A stretch of DNA of 52,299 nt, from positions 1-52,299 of the forward strand of contig JAGGXR010000079.1 in NCBI GenBank assembly GCA_021162935.1. Direction: 5' to 3'. Below are positions 12,156 through 43,453 of this stretch, piece after piece (position 1 is the stretch's first letter; the number at the start of each line of letters is the position of its first letter). The notes under the pieces are model-generated. The model saw only the letters and a program-made list of their open reading frames with translations, was not told the DNA's origin and did no database searches. The DNA is from Deltaproteobacteria bacterium (lineage in GTDB: Bacteria; Myxococcota_A; Polyangia; HGW-17; SLPX01). Position numbers and translations under genes: made by a program.

Positions 12156-12689
12156 ATGGATCTGAGCAAATTTGAAATGAAGGATCTTGTGGTCTCCGCC
12201 CTCAAGAGCGAAGTGGAGGCGGAAAAACTGTATCTGAAACTCGCATCGCGGATCTCCAACTTCATGCTGAAGGACCGTATGGAGTTCCTGGCCCAGGAGG
12301 AGAAGAAGCACGCCACGTTCTTCGCGGACCTCCACAAAAAGCTCTTTGGCCAGGACGCCATCGACCTGCCGGATCACACACCTGTCCCCCTGCCCGACGT
12401 CACGGTCGAAGGAGACAGCCAGCCTATTTCCGACGTGCTCGCCATGGCGATGGAGGCCGAGAAGGCGGCTTCGGACTTCTACACGTCCTGGGCGGAACGG
12501 TACGCAGCAGATGCTGCCGAAGACGAGTCAGACCCTTACATCCACAGTCCGGCAAAGATGCGCAAAATGCTGCTCTACGTGGCGTCCATGGAAATGGGCC
12601 ACTTCAAGCTCCTCGAGATCGAACGAGACAGGGCAATCGACTTCGAAGCCGAACAGATGCAATGGAACCTGGATTTCGTCGGGCCCTAA
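12156..12689 (+). CDS. Rubrerythrin-like (ferritin-fold) protein
   Basis: About 177 residues. MDLSKFEMKDLVVSALKSEVEAEKLYLKLA resembles the first helix of rubrerythrin-type diiron proteins in composition, and the metal-ligand motifs EVEAEKLY (first helix) and EEKKH (second helix) are visible. A second pair follows as MEAEKAASDFY and MEMGHFKLL. It is likely a cytoplasmic iron-binding or peroxide-scavenging protein without the C-terminal rubredoxin domain. I chose ATG 12156 because the family normally starts here; GTG 12150 is 5 bases after AGGA, and upstream in-frame ATGs at 12096 and 12075 would add 20 to 27 residues. Confidence 0.8.
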   Translation: MDLSKFEMKDLVVSALKSEVEAEKLYLKLASRISNFMLKDRMEFLAQEEKKHATFFADLHKKLFGQDAIDLPDHTPVPLPDVTVEGDSQPISDVLAMAMEAEKAASDFYTSWAERYAADAAEDESDPYIHSPAKMRKMLLYVASMEMGHFKLLEIERDRAIDFEAEQMQWNLDFVGP

Positions 12690-12931
12690 GGAGACTGTTC
12701 AAAATAGGGCTGCCAATTTGGCGGGGCGAGGCGCCCGCCTGGCATTTCGGTATGGACAAGGCCCAAGCCACGATCCGTCGGTGCTTCGATGGGCAGGACA
12801 GGAGCGACCACCCGATGTGCCTATTGAGGCCCGTCCGGCTGGGCTGCCACGCTGGGAATGGACGTGACGCCCCTGACACCACAGAAAAGAAGATTTCGGC
12901 ACATGAATGCGAACAGCAGGAGGGTCTCTTC

Positions 12932-14716
12932 ATGAATCTGGCCGTTACGCAACAATTGCGTCGTGTCGACACCGGACGAGACGGCGAACGAGAGGTCTCG
13001 TCGAAAAGAACCGACCTTCGGGGCTGCCATCATTTGATGGCGGGACTCGTGACCGCACTCGTCCTGGCGCCCTGGGCGGCGGCGGCGGGTCCTGCCCATG
13101 GTCACAGACGACCAGGAGCCCGGATGCGCGAGGACGGAACGGCTCGGCACCATCGAACGACCGGGCACCACCGCATGGCCCGGCACCATCGGCGGGGTCG
13201 GCGCCCCTCGAAACATCATGCAACTTCCAAGCATCGCATGACAGGGAAGTGGTCGCAGATCAGGGTCATCTCGTCCCCTGGGCTCCCCTTCACCATGGAG
13301 CAGACCCGATACCACACAGGACTCACCGTGGTGGTGGTCCCACTGCACACGCCCGGCGTGCTTGGATACGGCACAATCATCCGAGCAGGAGCACGAAACG
13401 AAGTGGAGCGAGGCCGAACCGGCTACGCCCATTTCTTCGAACACATGATGTTCCGTGGCACGAAGCGATACCCGCCGCCCAAGTACCGTGCCGTGCTTCA
13501 GGACGCGGGAGCAGACGACAACGCCTCTACGTCGGACGATCGGACGTTCTTCCACATCGTGGCCCGCTCGGATGCGCTGGCCCGAATCGCCGAGATCGAA
13601 GGGGACCGGTTCCAGCACCTGTCGTACAGCAAGCAGGCGTTCCAGACCGAGGCGAGGGCCGTGCTTGGCGAGTACCGCAAGTCTATGGCGAATCCCTGGT
13701 GGAAGATGTGGGAGGTCTTGCAGAAGACGGCGTTCACGCGGCACACGTACCGGCATACGGCCATGGGATTTCTGTCCGACATCGAATCGATGCCCAGGCA
13801 TTACCGATACAGCCGCACGTTCTTCAAGCGATACTATCGCCCGGACAACGCGATCCTGATCGTCACGGGCGATGTGACCCGCGATCAGGTCCGAAAGGTG
13901 GTCGAGCAGAACTACGAAACCTGGCACGGACGGGCGCACCGCGTGCGCCCGAAGGCTGAACCGGCACAGAAGCGGCCCCGTCTCGTTCGGGTGCCCTGGA
14001 CCGGACGAACCGTACCGCGGATCCTCATCGGCTACCGTATTCCCGCCTTCGATCCCACCACCGTGACCCCGGCGGCCCTGGACGTGGCCGCAAAGTTGGT
14101 CTTCGGAAAGACGTCGGCCCTGTACAAGGATCTGGTGCTGGACAGGCGACTCGTGAGCAGCCTGAAAGTCGACCTGTCTCCTCACAGGGACCCGTCGCTC
14201 TTTTACGTGATGGTGGCTCTCCATCACCCCAAAGACATCGAGGAAGTGACCCATCGCATTGCGGATGCGTTGCAGGACGCTGCAACGGTACCGGCGTCGC
14301 AGCAGGCAGTGGCGCGCATTCGGTCCCACGCGAAGTACGCCCTCATGCTGGATCTCAACACGCCCAAGGCCGTCATGGACGTGCTCATGCGGTTCGTCAC
14401 GCCTAGGGGCAAGGCCTCGGATCTTGCGGCCTACCTGAGGCAGCTCGACAAGGTAACGCCAAACGACGTGGCTCAAGTGGTGCATCGCTTTCTCGTGCCA
14501 GCGAAGGCAAGTTACGTGACACTCTACCAGGGTACGGATCAAACGGTCTACACGGGCGATGGCGACGCATCAGGCAAAGTGGGACCGACGGCCGCCCGGT
14601 CGGAGTCGGCGCGAGCCAAAACAGCCACAGGCCCGACAGCATCGAGTCGCCGCACATCTCGCCGGCATGCGCATCGACGTCATCACAGGTCCGGGCACCA
14701 CCGGAGACATCGCTAG
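12932..14716 (+). CDS. M16 family metallopeptidase with His-rich flanks (HxxEH subunit)
   Basis: The start ATG 12932 follows AGGAGGG; the frame is open further upstream but overlaps the previous gene. The product is 594 residues, with a signal-like segment LMAGLVTALVLAPWAAAA near 35-52. Zinc-binding HFFEH is at 167-171, with the distal Glu in EARAVLGEY about 75 residues on, as in pitrilysin/M16B peptidases. The C-terminal half has VLDRRLVSSL where an R/Y substrate motif would stand, so that motif is degenerate. A His/Arg-rich stretch (11 His in residues 56-101) follows the signal, and the last 22 residues are again His/Arg-rich. The next gene supplies an M16 subunit with the complementary motif, so the two probably form a periplasmic heterodimer. 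Confidence 0.9.
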   Translation: MNLAVTQQLRRVDTGRDGEREVSSKRTDLRGCHHLMAGLVTALVLAPWAAAAGPAHGHRRPGARMREDGTARHHRTTGHHRMARHHRRGRRPSKHHATSKHRMTGKWSQIRVISSPGLPFTMEQTRYHTGLTVVVVPLHTPGVLGYGTIIRAGARNEVERGRTGYAHFFEHMMFRGTKRYPPPKYRAVLQDAGADDNASTSDDRTFFHIVARSDALARIAEIEGDRFQHLSYSKQAFQTEARAVLGEYRKSMANPWWKMWEVLQKTAFTRHTYRHTAMGFLSDIESMPRHYRYSRTFFKRYYRPDNAILIVTGDVTRDQVRKVVEQNYETWHGRAHRVRPKAEPAQKRPRLVRVPWTGRTVPRILIGYRIPAFDPTTVTPAALDVAAKLVFGKTSALYKDLVLDRRLVSSLKVDLSPHRDPSLFYVMVALHHPKDIEEVTHRIADALQDAATVPASQQAVARIRSHAKYALMLDLNTPKAVMDVLMRFVTPRGKASDLAAYLRQLDKVTPNDVAQVVHRFLVPAKASYVTLYQGTDQTVYTGDGDASGKVGPTAARSESARAKTATGPTASSRRTSRRHAHRRHHRSGHHRRHR

Positions 14717-14731
14717 GTCGGAGGTTGTTTC

Positions 14732-16333
14732 ATGTCGAAGTTTCTCATATCGAAAGACCGGTTGCTCCCTGTGGTCGTCTCGTTGCTCGCAGGAGCCTGT
14801 GGGACCAATCGCCCTGAGCCGAAACAGGCACGGCCCGTAGCCAGGCAGACACGTCGAGCGCCCAAACCGAAGCTCAAATTCCATCCCATCGCCAAACTAC
14901 CACGGCCGGTCATTCGACCCAGGATCACGGTGCTCCAGGAGCCGGGCTCTACCGAACTGGACATCAGAGTCGTCTTCCGGGCAGGCTCGGCGGACGACCC
15001 GAAGGGCAAGGAGGGGCTGACCTGCCTCGCCGCCAACCTCATGGCGGAAGGCGGGGCCGGCAACCAGACCTGGGCGCAAATCATCGACACCCTCTACCCC
15101 ATGTCCGGACGTCTTTCCGTCCAATGCGGCAAGGACGTGACGGTGATTTCAGGTCGCGTGCACCGAGACTTCGCCCTGCCCTTCATGGCAATCTTCCAGG
15201 ACATCCTGCTCAGACCGAAATTCGAGCCGAAGGCCTTCGACCGCGTCAAAAAACAGACCCTCGACGAGATTCAAAAGGAACTACGATACGACAGCGATGA
15301 GGACCTGGGTAAGGCGGCGCTTGAGGTCTTCTTGTACCAGGGCCACCCATACGGGCGCCCGGCTGATGGGACGGTCACCGGACTCAACGCGATCACGTTG
15401 GACGACGTGAAGGCACAGGCCAAAAACGTGTTCGTGGTCCAACGTGTCCTAGCTGGGCTGGCCGGAACCGTTCGCCCCGTGGACCGGGCATCCCTCGAAG
15501 CAGCCCTGATGAAGCTGCCCTCGAACGCCCAGCCAAGGGCCACCCTGCCGCCCGCTCCTTCGATCAAGGGGCTGCATGTCCTCGTGGTGGACAAAAAAAG
15601 CCTCGGGTCGGCCATCTCCATCGGCTTGCCCATCGACGTCAAGCGAAGCGACCCGGACTTTGCCGCCCTTGCTCTTGCCGCATCGTATCTGGGCGAACAT
15701 CGACAGTCTTCGGGCGTGCTCTACCACAGGATGCGGACCCTGCGCGGCCTCAACTACGGAGACTATGCCTACACCGAATACTTCCACCAAGTAGGCTGGG
15801 GCCGACTGCCCATGGTGAACGTCACCCGCCGGCAGCAGTTCTTCTCCATCTGGATCCGGCCGGTGGACCGCTCCAAGGCGCACTTTGCGCTCCGGTTCGC
15901 CCTGCGCGAACTGGCTCGATTCATCCGTGACGGCATTCCTCCCGAAAAGTTCGACCGAGCCAAGAGGTTCCTTGCCGGCTACAGCCGACTCTGGGTCCAG
16001 ACCCCGGACCGACGCCTGGGCTTTGCCCTGGACGCTCGGTTCTATCACATGGGGTCCTACCCGACTTCGTTGAGCCGCGCCCTGGCGACGCTCACGCCCG
16101 AGCAGGTCAAAGCCGCAGTGGCCCGCCATTGGTCCGCGACCAACCTCAAGGTGGTGGTCGTGGCGTCCGACGCATCAACGCTCGCGAACGCCATCCGCAA
16201 AGACCAACCGTCCCCCATCACGTATGACTCTCCAAAGCCGGCCAGCATCCTGGCCGAGGATCGGATCGTGTCCCAGTATCCGCTGCATCCAATCGAGGTG
16301 AAGGTGGTGCCCGTCGATCGAATGTTCCAGTAG
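14732..16333 (+). CDS. M16 family peptidase-like lipoprotein (R/Y subunit, no HxxEH)
   Basis: The start ATG 14732 has GGAGG upstream and is 15 bases after the previous gene. The 533-residue product has a lipobox LAGAC, so it should be a lipoprotein, with Gly at +2. It has the M16 two-lobe layout, but the site of HxxEH reads LTCLAANLMAEGG, so there is no zinc site. The second lobe holds MRTLRGLNYGDYAY, matching the LRGLxY R/Y substrate motif. This is the standard division of labour in M16B pairs such as mitochondrial processing peptidase. The stop codon lies in a hairpin shared with the convergent next gene (16328-16350). Confidence 0.9.
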   Translation: MSKFLISKDRLLPVVVSLLAGACGTNRPEPKQARPVARQTRRAPKPKLKFHPIAKLPRPVIRPRITVLQEPGSTELDIRVVFRAGSADDPKGKEGLTCLAANLMAEGGAGNQTWAQIIDTLYPMSGRLSVQCGKDVTVISGRVHRDFALPFMAIFQDILLRPKFEPKAFDRVKKQTLDEIQKELRYDSDEDLGKAALEVFLYQGHPYGRPADGTVTGLNAITLDDVKAQAKNVFVVQRVLAGLAGTVRPVDRASLEAALMKLPSNAQPRATLPPAPSIKGLHVLVVDKKSLGSAISIGLPIDVKRSDPDFAALALAASYLGEHRQSSGVLYHRMRTLRGLNYGDYAYTEYFHQVGWGRLPMVNVTRRQQFFSIWIRPVDRSKAHFALRFALRELARFIRDGIPPEKFDRAKRFLAGYSRLWVQTPDRRLGFALDARFYHMGSYPTSLSRALATLTPEQVKAAVARHWSATNLKVVVVASDASTLANAIRKDQPSPITYDSPKPASILAEDRIVSQYPLHPIEVKVVPVDRMFQ

Positions 16334-29854: not shown

Positions 29855-32446
29855 TCAATATGACTGGTAGAGGGCCGCAATCTCCGCTGCTGATAGGGCG
29901 CGCGAATAGATGCGAATCTCGTCCACGGATCCGGGAAATGGTCCAACATTGACGGCTTCGGACGAACCCACGATCAGATCGTTTCCATTGGACACGATCG
30001 GCCCGGAGATGGCCTGGCTTCCCGTTCCAGCCGATTGTCCATCGACGTAGACCCGAACGAGGGTACCGTCGTAGGTGGCTGCCAAATGGTACCATCGTCC
30101 CGTGGCGAGACGCATGCTGCCGATGCTCGCCACGGTGCCGGCCGCATACCAAGCTACGTTCGTGGTGGCCAAGGCGAAATGCGCCGATCCGCCCGTGTCG
30201 AGGATCCATCGATACGCCGAATCCTTGCCCAAAGGTTGCACCGGTCCACTGGGAAGCTGGTCCAGTTTCGCCCAAAGCGAAACGGTCAGCGCCGCCATGC
30301 CATCGAGTGCGTCGGTGTCAGGAATGCGGACACGCCCAAAGGGCGTTCCGAACAGAGTAGACCGGCTGCTGACCGCGTCGGTCTGTACGAAGGCGGCGCC
30401 CTCATACTGGCCATCATGGTCCAAGACCGTATCCAAGGCCAGGTCCTCGACCACCCCGTCGAGATGCCACTCGCCCACCAGTTCCGAGATGGGAGCACCC
30501 GAAAAGACGGCCTGGATCGTGTGGTCGTTCGCGTCGGCCGGAAGCACGAACTGGGTGGCGGCCGCAATGGTCTGGCCATCGAGAATGATGCTCTGGACCA
30601 TGAAACCTGCATCGGGCACCAGACGGAACAACCTGTCCTTCGACCTGGCCACGAGCATCAGACCGTTCGGATAGATCGCTCCCCCCGAGGAACTCGACAC
30701 GTCGAGGCGTCGATGCACCGTATTCAGGCTCCCCCAGCTCACGAGCAGCAGAAGCCAGTCTTGGGCGTCTGGTTTCTCGGGCACGTTCCAATGGCCCGAT
30801 TGGGGCGAAACCTGGTCATCGATGAGCGACCAATGCCCGGTTCTCGGGTTGAACCAGTAGGCCGAGTAGGTACCGTTCATCCGGTAGATGGCGCCCTGCG
30901 CCGTGGCACCGTAGAAATAGGCCACGTACAGATCCGAACCATCCGAAGACAGGACCGATGCCTCCGAATCCGCAAACTGCGCCCAAGTGGGATCGGAGAA
31001 TCTCGGGGTCAGCCGCCACCAGGGCAAAGCATCGTAGAAGGCGCGCAGATGGCGCATCTGTTTGCCCCCGGCAAAATGGATGGCGTCGTACCATGGATGA
31101 ACGCCCCACTGCTCGCAGCATGAGCAGTCCGTGTCGGACGTGCAGTCGTTCCACAGGCCGTTGGCGCCGTAGCCGAAGCCCGTGCCACCACATTGGAGCG
31201 CCTTGTAGGCGGCCTCGCGCACGCGATCCGCGTGATTTGGGTCTGCGCCCAGCACGATCTCTTCGTAGTTCGCTTCGGCTTCGATGAACGGCTTGGTGGG
31301 CGCAGCGTTCCAGTAGACCTGATAGTGCGATTGCGGCTGGAGCGTGCCGTGCCCAGCCTGGAGAAAAAACAGGTCGTGTCCGGGATCGGTCGCCCAGATC
31401 ATCGGCTCGCCGTGGGTGCTCCCCCACATGTGGCACGTGGCCGGCTGGTCGTAGGCATCCACCTGATTCCAGGCGTCGAAGACCTGCTTCCACTGATCCG
31501 GGTCACTGTTGGGTGCATCGACCTCCTGGCTCGTAAAAAAAATGACCGGGTAGGCGCCATACCGGGCGTTGAGATACCGCGCCAGTCGGGCACCACCGGC
31601 GGCGGTGAAATAGGAGATATTGGAATGGGCCCCCAGGCCGAAGGCATGGACGAGTCCCCCGTCCGCGATGGCCGCAAAGAAGCGATCCAGGGCCTGATAC
31701 TTCGTCGGGTCGATACTGGTGGCGCCCTGATCGTTGCACAGCGTGTCAGCCACGGGATGAGACTGAAAGGCTGTGTAGCCCTCCTCCTCGCGCCGCCTCA
31801 AAGTCGGCAGGAATTGTGTTTCGAAGTCCTCGGCCTCCATGAACCAATGGGTGTCCGCCAGGTAGAAAAACGGCGTCCCGTCACGGTACTGCAGGTGCCG
31901 ACCGTCACTGCTCGTGGAAAGGAAGCCGTGTCGGTAGATGGGCAGGTCGCCGCCGTAGGCCACACAGTCCAGCGTACCCGTCTTGCCGTCGAGGCCAGAG
32001 TCCGTTGGGTCACTGTGCGTCTGATAGGTCCAGCGCCCCACCTTGGTCGGTGCGAATCGGATCTTGAAGTGACGACCGCCGTCCCAAAAACCGAGCCTTG
32101 TGATCGTATCGCCCTGGTCGTGGACAAAAGTCGCCGAGAAGGTCACGTCCATGAATGGATTCTGATACGCCTCATCAGACTCAAACGTAAGCTCGTAGAC
32201 GCGCCACTGCCCGACCGATGGTGGCCCAGCCTGCCCGTCGGACCGAGCGTCCAGGTCGGCGTCTCCACTGCCATCCCGGTCGGCGTCACCATTCGTTGCG
32301 TCCTGCGAGCGGGCATCGCTCTGCGCGTCCATCCCACCATCCGAGTCCTGAACGCGATGGTCCTTGGCGCAGCCCAAGGTCGTCACAAAAACGACGGCGA
32401 GCCAAGCCGCTGAAAGCCTGACCATACAACGACTGGGACTTGTCAC
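29855..32446 (-). CDS. DUF5060/DUF4038 apiosidase-like lipoprotein with LamG domain
   Basis: The start GTG 32446 has AGGAGG 6 bases upstream; upstream ATG 32530 lacks one. The 863-residue product has a lipobox TLGC, an Asp/Ser-rich linker (about residues 25-75), a DUF5060-type beta domain (RVYELTFESDEAYQNPFMDV...TYQTHSDPT), and a DUF4038 TIM-barrel-like domain with FLSTSSDGRHLQYRDG, HWFMEAEDFE and FFTSQEVDAPN. These match GH140-type apiosidases, which act on apiose in pectin rhamnogalacturonan II. A LamG/concanavalin-like domain follows near residues 690-860 (YVDGQSAGTGS, FPGSVDEIRIYSRALSAAEIAALY). It is consistent with pectin breakdown alongside the pectate lyase. The family assignment is by recognition only. 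Confidence 0.85.
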   Translation of the reverse strand: MTSPSRCMVRLSAAWLAVVFVTTLGCAKDHRVQDSDGGMDAQSDARSQDATNGDADRDGSGDADLDARSDGQAGPPSVGQWRVYELTFESDEAYQNPFMDVTFSATFVHDQGDTITRLGFWDGGRHFKIRFAPTKVGRWTYQTHSDPTDSGLDGKTGTLDCVAYGGDLPIYRHGFLSTSSDGRHLQYRDGTPFFYLADTHWFMEAEDFETQFLPTLRRREEEGYTAFQSHPVADTLCNDQGATSIDPTKYQALDRFFAAIADGGLVHAFGLGAHSNISYFTAAGGARLARYLNARYGAYPVIFFTSQEVDAPNSDPDQWKQVFDAWNQVDAYDQPATCHMWGSTHGEPMIWATDPGHDLFFLQAGHGTLQPQSHYQVYWNAAPTKPFIEAEANYEEIVLGADPNHADRVREAAYKALQCGGTGFGYGANGLWNDCTSDTDCSCCEQWGVHPWYDAIHFAGGKQMRHLRAFYDALPWWRLTPRFSDPTWAQFADSEASVLSSDGSDLYVAYFYGATAQGAIYRMNGTYSAYWFNPRTGHWSLIDDQVSPQSGHWNVPEKPDAQDWLLLLVSWGSLNTVHRRLDVSSSSGGAIYPNGLMLVARSKDRLFRLVPDAGFMVQSIILDGQTIAAATQFVLPADANDHTIQAVFSGAPISELVGEWHLDGVVEDLALDTVLDHDGQYEGAAFVQTDAVSSRSTLFGTPFGRVRIPDTDALDGMAALTVSLWAKLDQLPSGPVQPLGKDSAYRWILDTGGSAHFALATTNVAWYAAGTVASIGSMRLATGRWYHLAATYDGTLVRVYVDGQSAGTGSQAISGPIVSNGNDLIVGSSEAVNVGPFPGSVDEIRIYSRALSAAEIAALYQSY

Positions 32447-32606
32447 CGACAACCTCCTGTTTTTTTGCCAAACGAGCCGACCGATTCCAAACGGAACAAA
32501 CGCCAATGGGTTCGAACGACTCGTCAGCAACGTGCGCTGGCGTACTGTGACGTTCTACCGCAACATTGCCTGGAATCAGCCCAAACCCTGATCATCGTTC
32601 GACCGC

Positions 32607-35102
32607 TCACGGCTTCGAGTAACGTTTCGCCAAATTAAGCATCCGACACTTTGCATTGACGCAACGGGCCACATACGTGGCAAAGGCCCTGGCCGCATCC
32701 TGGCGTGCGCCCCGCTCCTTGAGAGAGTATCCCAGGCAGAACCAGGCGAGGCGCGTCATCGGGTCGACGGCCACGGCCTTCCTCGCAGCCCGCTCCGCCC
32801 GGCGGTAATTTCCGGCGTTGAGCGCCGACCAGGCCCGATTTTCGTAATGCTTGGCCAGCAGCATCTTGACCCGTTGGTCCGCAGGAAACTGCTTCGCAAG
32901 GCCTTCGAGCATCCCAACCGCCTGCCCCCTGTGTCTCTTCCACAACTTCTGAACCTGATCCATCTGCTCCTTGCTCGCCCCTGCCGGCCGCGGCCGCGGC
33001 GGCGCCATCCTTGCCGAAGCCAACCCTTGCGCCCCGGGGCCCTGCATCCCAGCAACCTGTGTGCCGCGGCCCTGCCGGCCCGAAGGTCCGGCCATCCCAT
33101 TTTGACGTTGCCGTGGCTGCCCGCCAACGTCGGCTGCTGCCTTCTGCCGGGCCTCACGCACCGGGTCTGGCAGATCCGACAACTGATCGGACCGTGCCTC
33201 CTTTTTTTCCTTTGCGACGTTGGCATAGGAATCGAAGACAAAGTGATACAAAGCAAAGCCGCCAAGCCCCGTCAGGACCAGACCGACGACGAGCAGGGTC
33301 AGTCGCTTGGCGCGTTTTGCCCCTGGTTGTCCGTATTCGTCTTCCAGATCTGAAAAATCGTCGCTGCTCTGGTACGCATTCTGGTCCGAGGAGAAAAAGT
33401 CTCGTTCGTCCGACAGCGCCGCCAACTTCATGGACGACTTTTTCCCCCTCTTTGCCTGCCCGTCGGTTGCGTGCCGACCGGTCCCCGACTCGCCATCCGT
33501 CTCGTCCAACCGATCCGGGGCCGCCCCGTCGCCAGCCTCTGTCGTGAGTCGATTGGCAATCGGTTGACGTGCCGGCTGCCCGGCGACTGGTTGCTCCACC
33601 TTTGGCTCGTGCCTTTGCGGCGACGGACTCTGGCCGGACGGCTTCCTCTGGCCGGACGGCACGCTCTGGCCGGACGGCTCTCTCTGGCCGGACGGCACGC
33701 TCTGGGCGGACGGCTCTCTCTGGCCGGACGATGGCACGGCACTTTTCCGACGCAGTTCCTGGGATGCCGACGACGGTGGAGTCAGGTCGGACCAGGGAAC
33801 GGCTTCCCCCTGGGGCCTGGTTCCCGATGTTCCAGTCAGGTTCTCCAGCACATCCTTCTGGGCGTCGGTGAGCCGCATGTCATACGAAAGCGAGACGCTC
33901 GGCGGTGGAGCGCCAATGGGCGGTGCTGTCACCGCAACCGGATCGGCCGACGGCGGAGGCATGACACGGGGGCCAGCCGGATGGGGAACTGCCACCTGGA
34001 TTGCCGCCCCTTGGTCTGCTGCCATGTGGGCAGCCCCCCCCGCAGGTGACGTCTGGTGGAAAGCTGCCGGATCAGGCCCAGCAACGCCGGGCGAGGCCAG
34101 GCCCTGCTTGGTCTCCGTCGGTTTGGGATGGGCCGACATCAGGATGCGCTGGTTCATGGAATCGCGTTCGGCCCGACGCAGGGCCACCCTGAATTGGTTG
34201 GCCGTTTGGAATCGACCGTCGGGCTGTTTGACCAACGCCCGAGCGATCACCGCCGAGACCACGGGAGGAACTGTGGGGACCAACTCCCGCAGGTCGCGTG
34301 GCGGCTGCTCCACGTGACCGCGAAGGATTTCATAGTCACTCGTTCCCGTAAAAGGAGGTCTGCCCGCGAGCATTTCAAAAAACAGGACCGCAGCCAGGTA
34401 CAGGTCGGTCCGTTGATCCACCGGTTGGCCGAGGGCCTGCTCGGGAGCCATGTACGCCGGAGTCGGAATGTGCCCGGGTAGGCCGGCCGAGCCCCTGGTC
34501 TGAAGGGACTGCAAAAACCCGAACCCAGTGACCATGACCCGATCCTCATCCGAAACGAACATGAGCGAAGGCCGCAACCGACCGTGCACCAGGTTCAGGC
34601 TGTGGGCATGCTCCAACCCGGACAGCACCTGGTCCATGAGCGGAATGCCCTTAAGCGCCGAGATGGTGCCGCGCTCGGACAGAATACGGTCGAGAGACCG
34701 ACCCTCTGGCTGTTCAAGCACCACCACGAATCTGCCGTTCTCTTCACGCAGGTTATACATGATGGGAATGTTCGGATGGTGCAGTTTGGCCAAGATCCGA
34801 GCCTCGGACAGGATGCGGCTGCGAAATTCCGGATCCGCCGCGATATGCCCGGCGAGCAACTCCACCGTCACCTGTTGACCGGTAAGATGGTGTGTCGCCC
34901 GGTACCGTTCGCCCAGATCATCGACCTGTTGGAGCCCCTCGATCACATAGTCCTGACAGACGACGGTGCCGGGTCTGAGCGTCTCCTGCTGCAGGTTGAT
35001 GGGCAGGGCGACATCCGACTGGTGTGGGATGGGCGTCCCGCAGGCAAAGCAAAACACGGCTCCATCGGGAAGTGTTTTTCCGCATTGAGGGCAAATGGTC
35101 AC
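32607..35102 (-). CDS. Zinc-ribbon Ser/Thr pseudokinase, single-pass membrane protein with TPR-like C-terminus
   Basis: GTG 35102 (GGGGA upstream) is the chosen start; the frame runs on upstream, where it would overlap the divergent gene. 831 residues. An N-terminal zinc ribbon (CPQC at 4-7, CFAC at 18-21) precedes a PknB-like kinase fold (about 50-320). The fold keeps SEARIL with the alpha-C Glu, PAYMAPEQA and DLYLAAVLFFEMLAGRPPF, but the VAIK Lys is Glu 81, HRD is HGR (173-175), the Mg-binding Asn is Leu 180, and DFG is GFG (193-195). So phosphotransfer is not expected. A Pro/Ser/Gln-rich linker with an 18-bp DNA repeat follows, then a membrane segment near 598-621 and C-terminal TPR-like helices, probably periplasmic. 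It likely acts as a binding or allosteric scaffold. Confidence 0.88.
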   Translation of the reverse strand: MTICPQCGKTLPDGAVFCFACGTPIPHQSDVALPINLQQETLRPGTVVCQDYVIEGLQQVDDLGERYRATHHLTGQQVTVELLAGHIAADPEFRSRILSEARILAKLHHPNIPIMYNLREENGRFVVVLEQPEGRSLDRILSERGTISALKGIPLMDQVLSGLEHAHSLNLVHGRLRPSLMFVSDEDRVMVTGFGFLQSLQTRGSAGLPGHIPTPAYMAPEQALGQPVDQRTDLYLAAVLFFEMLAGRPPFTGTSDYEILRGHVEQPPRDLRELVPTVPPVVSAVIARALVKQPDGRFQTANQFRVALRRAERDSMNQRILMSAHPKPTETKQGLASPGVAGPDPAAFHQTSPAGGAAHMAADQGAAIQVAVPHPAGPRVMPPPSADPVAVTAPPIGAPPPSVSLSYDMRLTDAQKDVLENLTGTSGTRPQGEAVPWSDLTPPSSASQELRRKSAVPSSGQREPSAQSVPSGQREPSGQSVPSGQRKPSGQSPSPQRHEPKVEQPVAGQPARQPIANRLTTEAGDGAAPDRLDETDGESGTGRHATDGQAKRGKKSSMKLAALSDERDFFSSDQNAYQSSDDFSDLEDEYGQPGAKRAKRLTLLVVGLVLTGLGGFALYHFVFDSYANVAKEKKEARSDQLSDLPDPVREARQKAAADVGGQPRQRQNGMAGPSGRQGRGTQVAGMQGPGAQGLASARMAPPRPRPAGASKEQMDQVQKLWKRHRGQAVGMLEGLAKQFPADQRVKMLLAKHYENRAWSALNAGNYRRAERAARKAVAVDPMTRLAWFCLGYSLKERGARQDAARAFATYVARCVNAKCRMLNLAKRYSKP
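33628..33733 (-). repeat. 18-bp tandem repeats in the pseudokinase linker
   Basis: Five units of 18 bp (33628-33717) plus a partial sixth share CTCTGGCCGGACGG and encode PSGQREPSGQSV-type repeats in the linker between kinase fold and membrane segment. Confidence 0.85.
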
Positions 35103-35229: not shown

Positions 35230-35249
35230 TCCCACGTTTGCAGTCGACC

Positions 35250-36377
35250 ATGAACCCACACCGACGCACCAGGATGATGCAGTACCTCGAACACATCTCG
35301 AAGACTCCCTACGCAGTCTGGTACCGCGTCCAAGGCGACTACGCAGGCGCCATCCAGCGGTACGTGGTCACGACGCCCGACAGCCGTCGTATCTGCAACG
35401 AACCCGAACTGGTGGGCTGGCAGTTCACCGATGCCATGAGGCATGCGGTCACGGGCGCTCTTGCGACGGCCCCCTTTGCAGGCGCCATCCAGTCCGTGCC
35501 CCAACATCGCGTGTGCGTGCTCAATTTTCTGCGCGGCGGCCTCAACTTCGACCTGCGCACGGCGCTCCACGATGCCTATGGAATGAATCACCATGTCTCT
35601 GCCTTCATGAGCTCCCAACGCCGCAGGACCGAGGGGCGCTGGGAGGTCCACGAGGACATGTACCGAAAGCTCCGGATTCCCGATGGAGCCATTCTCATGG
35701 TTGGAGACGTGGTGGCCACGGGTGCCACCATCTCGAACGGTCTTTCCGTGCTCCTCTCCCACATGACGCAACTCGGCTCACGGCTGTCCATGCTCGTGTT
35801 CTTTGCCGTCGGCTGTCACAAGCTCGAAAAACACCTCGAAGCATTCCATGAACGCTGCCTCGAACTGTTTCCAAACTACGAAGCGACCCACGCCGTATAC
35901 CTGGAAGGCAAGTTCAAGTTGGTGGACAGCAAGACCCATCTGCGCATCAGCATCCAGGGAACGGACCTCATCAAGCCAGGAGCCCTCTTGGCGCCAGAGT
36001 ATGCCCTGACCCAGTACGGGTCGCTCAACTATCCACTGGAACGCTGCGTGATCTACGACGCGGGCTCGAGGGCCTTCGACGTGCCCCATTACCTCGATGA
36101 CGTGGCAGGCTACTGGACTGAACTACGAAACCTGGCCCGCCGGGGCTGGACCATGGCCGATGCCCTCCAGGAACGCTGGCCGGACCGACAGGACGACCAG
36201 GTCGAACAGGAGCATCGGACGTGGCGCGGCATCGACGAAGACCTCTTCGTCCGGATCCAGCAAGCCCGTGAGAACCGATGGACCGAAGCCTTCCAAAAAA
36301 CGGGTGCGACCGCCCGCGCCCTCGAACGACTCTGCGACGAACGACTCGGCACCATCGAAGGGCTCACGTCCTTGTAG
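35250..36377 (+). CDS. Phosphoribosyltransferase-domain protein, type I fold
   Basis: 375 residues from ATG 35250 (alternatives 35274 and 35277 nearer the AGG). The PRPP-binding motif ILMVGDVVATGAT lies near residues 148-160: the canonical VDD is VGD, and TGGT is TGAT, so PRPP binding is likely but altered. The N-terminal region has GGLNFDLRTAL and the RTAL-type acceptor region typical of base-binding PRTases. A C-terminal extension of about 180 residues, with no recognised domain, is unusual for type I PRTases. It precedes a nucleoside phosphorylase gene by 27 bases, which suggests nucleobase salvage: the phosphorylase releases the base, the PRTase would recharge it. The substrate is not established. 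Confidence 0.8.
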   Translation: MNPHRRTRMMQYLEHISKTPYAVWYRVQGDYAGAIQRYVVTTPDSRRICNEPELVGWQFTDAMRHAVTGALATAPFAGAIQSVPQHRVCVLNFLRGGLNFDLRTALHDAYGMNHHVSAFMSSQRRRTEGRWEVHEDMYRKLRIPDGAILMVGDVVATGATISNGLSVLLSHMTQLGSRLSMLVFFAVGCHKLEKHLEAFHERCLELFPNYEATHAVYLEGKFKLVDSKTHLRISIQGTDLIKPGALLAPEYALTQYGSLNYPLERCVIYDAGSRAFDVPHYLDDVAGYWTELRNLARRGWTMADALQERWPDRQDDQVEQEHRTWRGIDEDLFVRIQQARENRWTEAFQKTGATARALERLCDERLGTIEGLTSL

Positions 36378-41560: not shown

Positions 41561-43453
41561 ATGAAAGTGCAAGCCTGGGGTGCCACAGACGTGGGCAAAA
41601 CCCGGGAACACAACGAAGACGCCTTTTTCTGCGATCCAAACCTGGGACTCTTCATGGTATGCGACGGCATGGGAGGACACGCCGCCGGTGAGGTCGCCTC
41701 GGCCATGGCAGTGGAAACGGTTCGCAAGGCGGTCGAAAAAAACCAGGATCTCCTCAAGAAGGTCGAAAAGCTGGACGGAACTGCCGAGAAGCACGATGTC
41801 CTCGCGTTTCTGGACCAGGCGATTCAATCCGCCTGTTCGACCATCCACGACCGAGCCCAGGCGGAGCCCGAAAAGAGAGGGATGGGCACCACCGTGGACC
41901 TGCTGCTCGTGGCCGGCATGCGTGGCTTCATCGCACACGTGGGCGACAGCCGCATCTACCTGGTCCGTCACAACAAGGTCCATCAGCTCACCGAGGACCA
42001 TTCCATCATCGCCTACCTCATCAAGACGGGCAGGCTCAAGCCGGACGAGGTGGATTCGAGTCCCTACGCAAAATACAAAAATGCGGTGACCCGAGCCGTC
42101 GGCGTGTACGAGACCGTCGAGGTGGATACGTTCGACTTCGACATCCTGCCAGGAGACACGTGCCTACTCTGCTCCGACGGACTTTCCTACTACCTCAACG
42201 ACAACCGAATCACCAAGGTACTCGAAGCGGAATCCCTCGAAATCAGCGCCAAGACGTATATCGACCTGGCCAATGCCGGCGGCGGACACGACAACATCAC
42301 CGCCGTGCTCGTACGGGCTCCAGAACAGGTGGAAAAGGCGCACGAAGTGCGCGCCGCCGACGTCCAACAGCAGATGGCCGTCCTGGCCAAGATGAGCCTG
42401 TTCCGAGAACTCGCCTACAAGCAACTCGTCCGCATCCTGAACATCTCCACGACCAGGTCCTTCGCAACGGGAGACGTGGTGGTCCACGAAGGGGACCCGG
42501 GCGACGAACTCTTCGTGGTCCTGACCGGAACCATCGCCCTGACCAAAGACGAAACCTACATCACGACCTTCTCACACGGCGACTACTTCGGAGAAATGGC
42601 GCTGGTGGACAGCAGTCCGCGCAGCGCCACCGCTGTCGCTGCGGAACCAACACGGGTCCTCGTGATCCACCAAAACAACTTCTTCCGAATCCTCAGAAAA
42701 GAACCGGAAATTGCGGTCAAGCTCTTGTGGAACTTTGTCCGGGTGCTCACCGATCGCCTGCGCCGCACCACGGCCGATCTGAGCGGCGCCCGACTCGAAG
42801 CCGCAGCCGAGGACCTTTCCAGCGAGGCGACCCTGCTCGAAACCATGCCCGACCGCATCACGCCGCAAGGCGCTGCCCGGACGAGTCGACACGAACTCTC
42901 CGTTGACACGCTGCGTGGCAACGGAATCTCGCCGTTGAGCGAAGCCGATTTCGAAGCGAAACCAGGAGACGTTGTGGTAGAGACGGCCACGCCCAACACG
43001 AAAGACGTGACTGCAGCAGAGGCGGAAACCGCTCGAACGAATCAGCCACAGGCGCCTGCGGCGCCCCCGGCCAAGGCCCCCACCGAAACGCCGAACCGGT
43101 CCGAATCAGACGGCATGGCCGAACAGGTGGCTGGGGCGGACGAGCCGAATCCATCGGCCGGGCCAGGAGCAGCCAACCCATCGAAAGGCAGCTCGCAACC
43201 TTCGACGACCGCCCCGGATCCGCCCGTACAGCAGGCCATCGCCGAGATGATCAACGATACGTTACGCGGCAACCAAAGCGCACCTGCGGACTTCGAGCCC
43301 CAGCCCCTCGACGAACAACCAGTGGTCACCCAGGCCCCCATCATCCACGTCGGCAGACAGCGGGAGGAAGGCTCGTCCGCAGCAGGAACGAAACCGGCGG
43401 CAGCCCCTTCAGAGCCAGATCGATCCACCGATCCCGAGGCGGAACGAGAATAA
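41561..43453 (+). CDS. PP2C-type Ser/Thr phosphatase fused to a cyclic-nucleotide-binding domain
   Basis: The start ATG 41561 follows GGAG. 630 residues. PP2C domain 1-255: metal-binding Asp 20 (HNEDAFF) and Asp 35 ([11 protein letters not shown]), then [19 protein letters not shown] and [12 protein letters not shown], so it should be catalytically active. Residues about 275-395 are a cyclic-nucleotide-binding (CAP-type) domain with a phosphate-binding cassette [19 protein letters not shown], including the Arg that contacts the cyclic phosphate. The remaining 230 residues are acidic and Pro/Ala-rich, probably disordered. Phosphatase activity is likely controlled by cAMP or cGMP. No kinase partner is adjacent; a pseudokinase lies 6 kb upstream. 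queE follows by 10 bases. Confidence 0.9.

Follow-up and report, generated by a model that had tools for sequence, protein, structure and literature searches.

The window (the entire 52,299-nucleotide stretch of DNA analyzed here) carries on its minus strand a single open frame of 831 codons, which begins with GTG at 35102 and lies exactly where a preliminary description of this DNA had placed it. Its product is composed, in order, of a zinc ribbon, a Hanks-type kinase fold, a long disordered linker, one membrane segment and a TPR tail (Table 1). A longer open frame reaching 35771 was not adopted for the gene start, since 35238 is already the start of a plus-strand gene and the two relatives described below start with V just ahead of the zinc ribbon. 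In Pfam scans of the full protein the Pkinase and Zn_Ribbon_1 profiles pass their cut-offs, while the TPR match is weaker and passes only when the tail is scanned alone; among NCBIfam models no curated cut-off is reached. The membrane segment is the only hydrophobic segment of the protein. The 18-bp repeat, the lone membrane segment and the TPR-like tail of the preliminary description are all borne out.

Table 1. The pseudokinase gene and its features, with positions in the window
Feature	Position	Strand	Evidence or remark
Pseudokinase gene	32607..35102	-	831 aa, GTG start; open frame; the two relatives likewise have V as first residue, immediately ahead of their zinc ribbon
N-terminal zinc ribbon CPQCG-x9-CFACG, residues 1-26	35025..35102	-	Pfam Zn_Ribbon_1 32.1 bits, E 9e-8, cut-off 25; present also in active sister kinases
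Pseudokinase domain, residues 46-312	34167..34967	-	Pfam Pkinase 99.8 bits, E 2.2e-28, cut-off 31.7; AlphaFold2 pLDDT 92.5, pTM 0.90; PDB match PknA 4ow8
Degraded glycine loop GLQQVDDLGE, residues 56-65	34908..34937	-	aligned against LIGYGGMGEV of active kin
Beta-3 Lys replaced by Glu81	34860..34862	-	alignment with kin
Catalytic loop HGRLRPSL in place of HRDxKPxN, residues 173-180	34563..34586	-	alignment with kin
GFG in place of DFG, residues 193-195	34518..34526	-	alignment with kin
Long Pro/Ala/Ser/Gly-rich linker, residues 313-566	33405..34166	-	composition; neither its length nor its sequence is conserved in L141
18-bp tandem repeat, 5.7 copies, coding PSGQRE/PSGQSV units	33628..33730	-	Tandem Repeats Finder, 87% match; within linker
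Juxtamembrane acidic motif RDFFSSDQNAYQSSDDFSDLED, residues 567-588	33339..33404	-	three occurrences of DDFSDL across the four genomes searched
Single membrane segment, residues 601-619, KRAKR just before	33246..33302	-	mean hydropathy 2.08 over 19 residues; topology predicted by the positive-inside rule
Second low-complexity linker, residues 645-712	32967..33170	-	composition
C-terminal TPR domain, residues 715-831, Cys pair CVNAKC near end	32610..32960	-	TPR_16 36.5 bits scanned alone; AlphaFold2 pLDDT 93.0; PDB matches are TPR domains

Several distinct genes surround this one: an apiosidase-like glycoside hydrolase with a DUF5060 and a laminin-G-like domain (29855-32530, minus strand), which adjoins it on the same strand; a divergently transcribed neighbor (35238-36377, plus strand) that has neither a Pfam nor an NCBIfam match and includes a phosphoribosyltransferase-like stretch (MVGDVVATGATISNG), followed by a PNP_UDP_1 phosphorylase; a fusion of a PP2C-type Ser/Thr phosphatase (over the cut-off of the Stp1 model) with a cyclic-nucleotide-binding domain, some 6 kb away (41561-43453, plus strand); and two M16-family peptidase genes side by side (12662-16333, plus strand). 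The neighborhood was rejected as a functional clue because the neighbors of the window gene and of its relatives in two further genomes (G010 and G011) differ: these loci have only the kinase gene in common, and no operon, conserved neighborhood or partner backing a scaffold role was found at them. A defense role was likewise set aside, since the matches that PADLOC gave (PD-T4-6 and others) are generic ones to the kinase domain.

The kinase fold is clear, as the preliminary description held. The Pkinase profile extends over the whole domain, and an AlphaFold2 model built on 60 aligned sequences predicts with confidence a bilobal fold similar to PknA and PknB; the best solved structures in a structure comparison are PknA and PknB/Stk1 (PknA 4ow8: Z 34.0, rmsd 1.9, 265 aligned). 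The activation loop spans 29 residues from GFG to the APE Glu, as against 29-30 in the active kin L003 and L129. Alignment with kin shows that all five catalytic residues are replaced, just as had been claimed: the VAIK (beta-3) Lys (K81E), the HRD Asp (D175R), the catalytic-loop Lys (K177R) and Asn (N180L), and the DFG Asp (D193G). The glycine loop has lost two glycines (LQQVDDLGE versus LIGYGGMGE in active kin). The alpha-C Glu100, the HRD His173, Phe194 and Gly195 of the DFG motif, the APE Glu221, the F-helix Asp233 and the C-lobe Arg297 are kept. An active Hanks-type kinase is defined by the beta-3 Lys and the Asp of HRD and DFG, at which positions this protein has E81, R175 and G193; a bacterial pseudokinase is defined by a kinase fold with at least one residue of this triad lost, and here all three are lost. 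A shifted catalytic Lys of the WNK kind is excluded, and with it the Lys/Asp pair at shifted positions that, by the preliminary description, would have spoken against its reading: the only lysines up to residue 315 are K9, K106, K151 and K292, with none between the first two. Frameshift or sequencing damage was also rejected, given the single open frame and the losses common to the relatives. Sequence and model together show an intact fold from which the residues that anchor ATP, bind metal and transfer phosphate are gone.

Relatives were found in two of the 13 genomes that sample the order, both from one other family. The G011 protein (L141) is complete, with zinc ribbon, pseudokinase domain, linker, FFS..DDFSDLDD, membrane segment, second linker and TPR tail; the G010 protein (L140) breaks off within the first linker, where its contig stops. 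In both, the catalytic loop reads HG[RQ]LTA.S and GFD stands in place of DFG, such that the catalytic Lys has become Thr and the Asn has become Ser; the beta-3 Lys survives in both, as does part of the glycine loop. Thus, four of the five losses (HRD Asp, catalytic-loop Lys, Asn and DFG Asp) are common to the three proteins, although the replacement residues do not form one common set. The spine residues His173 and Phe194 are conserved in all three. The preliminary description had suggested a catalytic loss in each motif and a search for orthologs with the same losses: the former holds for the window protein and fails for its relatives, and the search recovered the four common losses and not the fifth. 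As both relatives keep the beta-3 Lys, its loss is, from this alignment, specific to the lineage of the window protein. This suggests an order of loss: the common ancestor had already lost the four residues, and the beta-3 Lys then disappeared in the window lineage alone.

When 88 kinase domains are placed in a tree, the window protein and its two relatives form one clade (support 100/99), which is adjoined by the active zinc-ribbon kinases L128/L129 of G010 and G011 (99/70) and then by L003, L135 and L137 (100/97); a 34-row tree from which the motif columns were removed gives corresponding supports of 98/95, 96/88 and 95/80. Long branches make it uncertain where in the larger tree the genome's most divergent kinases belong. 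Since the active sister kinases carry a zinc ribbon too, this domain is older than the pseudokinase, and its portrayal in the preliminary description as an addition does not stand; these sisters permit a direct comparison of active and inactive forms. A DNA pattern for the motifs (HG[RQ]L...DR..[VI]TGF) occurs in 3 of the 289 genomes of the class in which it was sought, namely the window genome, G010 and G011. The class was covered by this pattern and, in 78 genomes, by a search with the tail; a relative whose loop is degraded in another way would have escaped. An ortholog scan of genome contigs returned, as its best 80 loci, sequences of 27-36% identity, nearly all of which have their motifs intact. 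As nearly all other related kinases examined keep their catalytic motifs, the pattern of losses is not due to chance.

These comparisons bear on whether the gene is decaying without function. Many of the changes at active-site positions are non-conservative, and between the G010 and G011 relatives (zinc ribbon plus kinase) dN is 0.247 and dS, which is near saturation, 1.35, giving a ratio near 0.18, somewhat above the 0.11 of the active pair L128/L129 (dN 0.101, dS 0.88); the window protein is too distant for a meaningful ratio and was left out. Nevertheless, a ratio near 0.18 speaks for constraint, if somewhat weaker than in the active pair; the 831-codon frame, the zinc-ribbon cysteines, the TPR and the juxtamembrane motif are all kept; and the relatives in another family retain the same four losses and, where complete, the layout. 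Decay is therefore highly improbable. On the sequence evidence the gene codes for a pseudokinase and has not decayed, in agreement with the earlier judgment that the protein is no damaged kinase: its fold is intact, and the two relatives have four of its five losses and its layout as far as their contigs reach. Since genes of this type are present in two related bacteria as well, the protein probably has a maintained binding role, as others of this generally known kind do.

The same comparisons bear on two readings that keep some chemistry or ligand in the pocket. The domain could be a non-catalytic switch that still binds nucleotide, perhaps without metal, and signals by a change of shape. 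In favor of this, the beta-3 Lys and some of the glycine loop persist in the two relatives, and pseudokinases of the DLHK family, with a GFG motif, are proposed to bind ATP via arginines (PMC12599244), of which the window protein has R175 and R177 in its catalytic loop. In the window protein itself, however, the Lys has become Glu, and the loop has exchanged two of its glycines, in part for Asp, which is expected to repel phosphates; we consider such a switch improbable. It is still harder to credit an enzyme with a remodelled active site and new chemistry, like the AMPylating SelO or the glutamylating SidJ: other pseudokinase folds have gained such activities (PMC12599244), but in SelO and SidJ the beta-3 Lys and the metal-binding Asp are still in place, both of which are gone here, and the three related proteins lack one common set of replacement residues.

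The genome has 84 Pkinase matches, which correspond to about 80 distinct domains of useful length, most of them intact; a zinc-ribbon-like pattern lies upstream of the kinase domain in 7 of the 80. Roughly 8 of the 80 (about a tenth) lack at least one of the Lys, HRD Asp and DFG Asp, and all three are missing only from the window protein and the very divergent C42:30689. Elsewhere in this genome, one protein (L192:1413-3605; G000:C114:43899-45329) has two kinase domains, of which the first is a pseudokinase (HGA, GFG) and the second has the Lys and both Asp intact; a further divergent pseudokinase (G000:C49:90372-91121) shows a beta-3 Arg, HGA for HRD and DGG for DFG. With so many intact kinase domains at hand, the pseudokinase domain might pair with a catalytically active zinc-ribbon kinase and switch it on or off as an allosteric partner, a way in which pseudokinases often act. 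Its descent from active zinc-ribbon kinases in the trees and its retained fold and His/Phe spine positions would fit such pairing. Against this, none of the kinases of this genome falls in the tree as a counterpart of L128/L129, the nearest active sister type, and no active kinase lies beside the gene in the window; hence, we regard allosteric pairing as rather unlikely.

A different lead comes from the C-terminal half. A search with residues 541-831 matches a second protein of the same genome (G000:C161:40127-40963; E 8e-10, 35% identity), which has a receiver domain, a DUF4388 domain, a long linker, FFSGAESEENLDDFSDLED, a membrane segment and a TPR with CPKC. This receiver-DUF4388-linker-FFS..DDFSDLED-TM-TPR protein (L197:13825-17091, minus strand) is encoded directly upstream of a tsaD-like gene. 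Proteins with similar tails are found upstream of a tsaD-like gene also in G010, G011 and G034, the G011 copy being a full receiver-DUF4388 protein. In four genomes the DNA pattern for DDFSDL[ED] occurs in exactly three places: the window gene, the G011 pseudokinase and the receiver-DUF4388 protein of the window genome; the motif is absent from the receiver proteins of G010 and G011. The AlphaFold2 model of the tail, built on 6 sequences, has a pLDDT of 93.0, and its matches among solved structures are TPR domains. Since the TPR tails are only 20-32% identical, save within one genus, the tail on its sequence is a loose resemblance, and the motif is the sharper link between the pseudokinase and the receiver-DUF4388 protein. 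To judge from sequence, then, what is new is that the FFS..DDFSDL juxtamembrane motif and a similar TM-plus-TPR tail link a pseudokinase to a receiver-DUF4388 protein beside tsaD.

Taken together, we somewhat favor the view that the gene product is a catalytically dead Hanks-type kinase at the inner membrane which acts as a non-catalytic docking platform. The cytosolic zinc-ribbon-pseudokinase head, on its long flexible linker, would bind a client, which might be an active kinase or the substrate of one; the FFS..DDFSDLED stretch may serve as a juxtamembrane docking motif; and the TPR tail, which the positive-inside rule would place in the periplasm, may bind an envelope protein. The pseudokinase would thereby tether cytosolic signaling proteins to the envelope without chemistry. 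Each of these binding steps is proposed from the anatomy seen in sequence and models. The suggestion in the preliminary description of a scaffold that signals through binding would fit both this anatomy and known precedents among membrane pseudokinases with binding roles: MviN recruits FhaA, and EssB/YukC helps hold a secretion machine together (PMC12599244). Against this view count the differing gene neighborhoods and the small size of the family, of which only three members are known, with the G010 copy truncated where its contig stops. That the receiver-DUF4388 protein encoded in the window genome has a similar motif and TM-TPR tail suggests that one partner may serve two different cytosolic heads. 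It is conceivable, as a tentative extension, that the two heads are interchangeable on a common envelope module (the FFS..DDFSDL motif, the membrane segment and a TPR with a Cys pair), with a dead kinase and a two-component receiver either competing for one envelope partner or both reporting to it. The likeness offers a concrete lead to a partner and could tie Hanks-type and two-component signaling together at the envelope.

Bacterial pseudokinases are already known, though few have a known task. Our searches of PubMed Central found no description of this architecture. By motifs and layout, the protein fits none of five pseudokinase families with which it was compared (ActPs3, GLW, CP1, DYD and DLHK). 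MviN of Mycobacterium tuberculosis (ActPs3) is likewise a membrane protein with a Hanks-type pseudokinase that has lost all three motifs and recruits a partner (PMC12599244); however, it is a peptidoglycan-synthesis membrane protein, whereas the window protein has a zinc ribbon, a long linker, one membrane segment and a TPR tail, and its activation loop is of normal length, in contrast to the ActPs3 family, where part of that loop is deleted. MviN is not among the 50 matches listed in the structure comparison, an absence that excludes nothing. EssB/YukC of type VII secretion is also a membrane protein with a cytosolic pseudokinase and has a structural role, but its kinase domain is much reduced, while that of the window protein resembles PknA/PknB closely and its activation loop is of full length; a Pfam scan at E 0.01 gave no YukC match in it. 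The GLW pseudokinases of proteobacteria, with GLW for HRD and a poly-Leu stretch at the beta-3 Lys, are the closest in layout, but the window protein has HGR and no poly-Leu. The DLHK pseudokinases (P. aeruginosa Q9I0B5) are the closest in the GFG motif and have likewise lost the beta-3 Lys, with a loop HRDLRPAS comparable to HGRLRPSL; yet they keep the HRD Asp and have no membrane segment, in contrast to R175 and the segment at 601-619. CP1 pseudokinases have a COG3899 ATPase domain and no membrane segment, the reverse of what is seen here (no ATPase domain by Pfam); DYD pseudokinases have a beta-3 Arg and no alpha-C Glu, as opposed to E81 and a retained Glu100. The active zinc-ribbon kinases nearest in the tree, L128/L129 and, in this genome, L003, have the same combination of zinc ribbon and kinase domain, but with all catalytic motifs intact. 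The kinome of Myxococcus xanthus, with 11 pseudokinases among 99 STPKs (PMC6791715), is comparably large and has a similar proportion of about a tenth, those pseudokinases being named by at least one lost residue. Against this background the window protein is a lineage-restricted variant of the bacterial pseudokinases.
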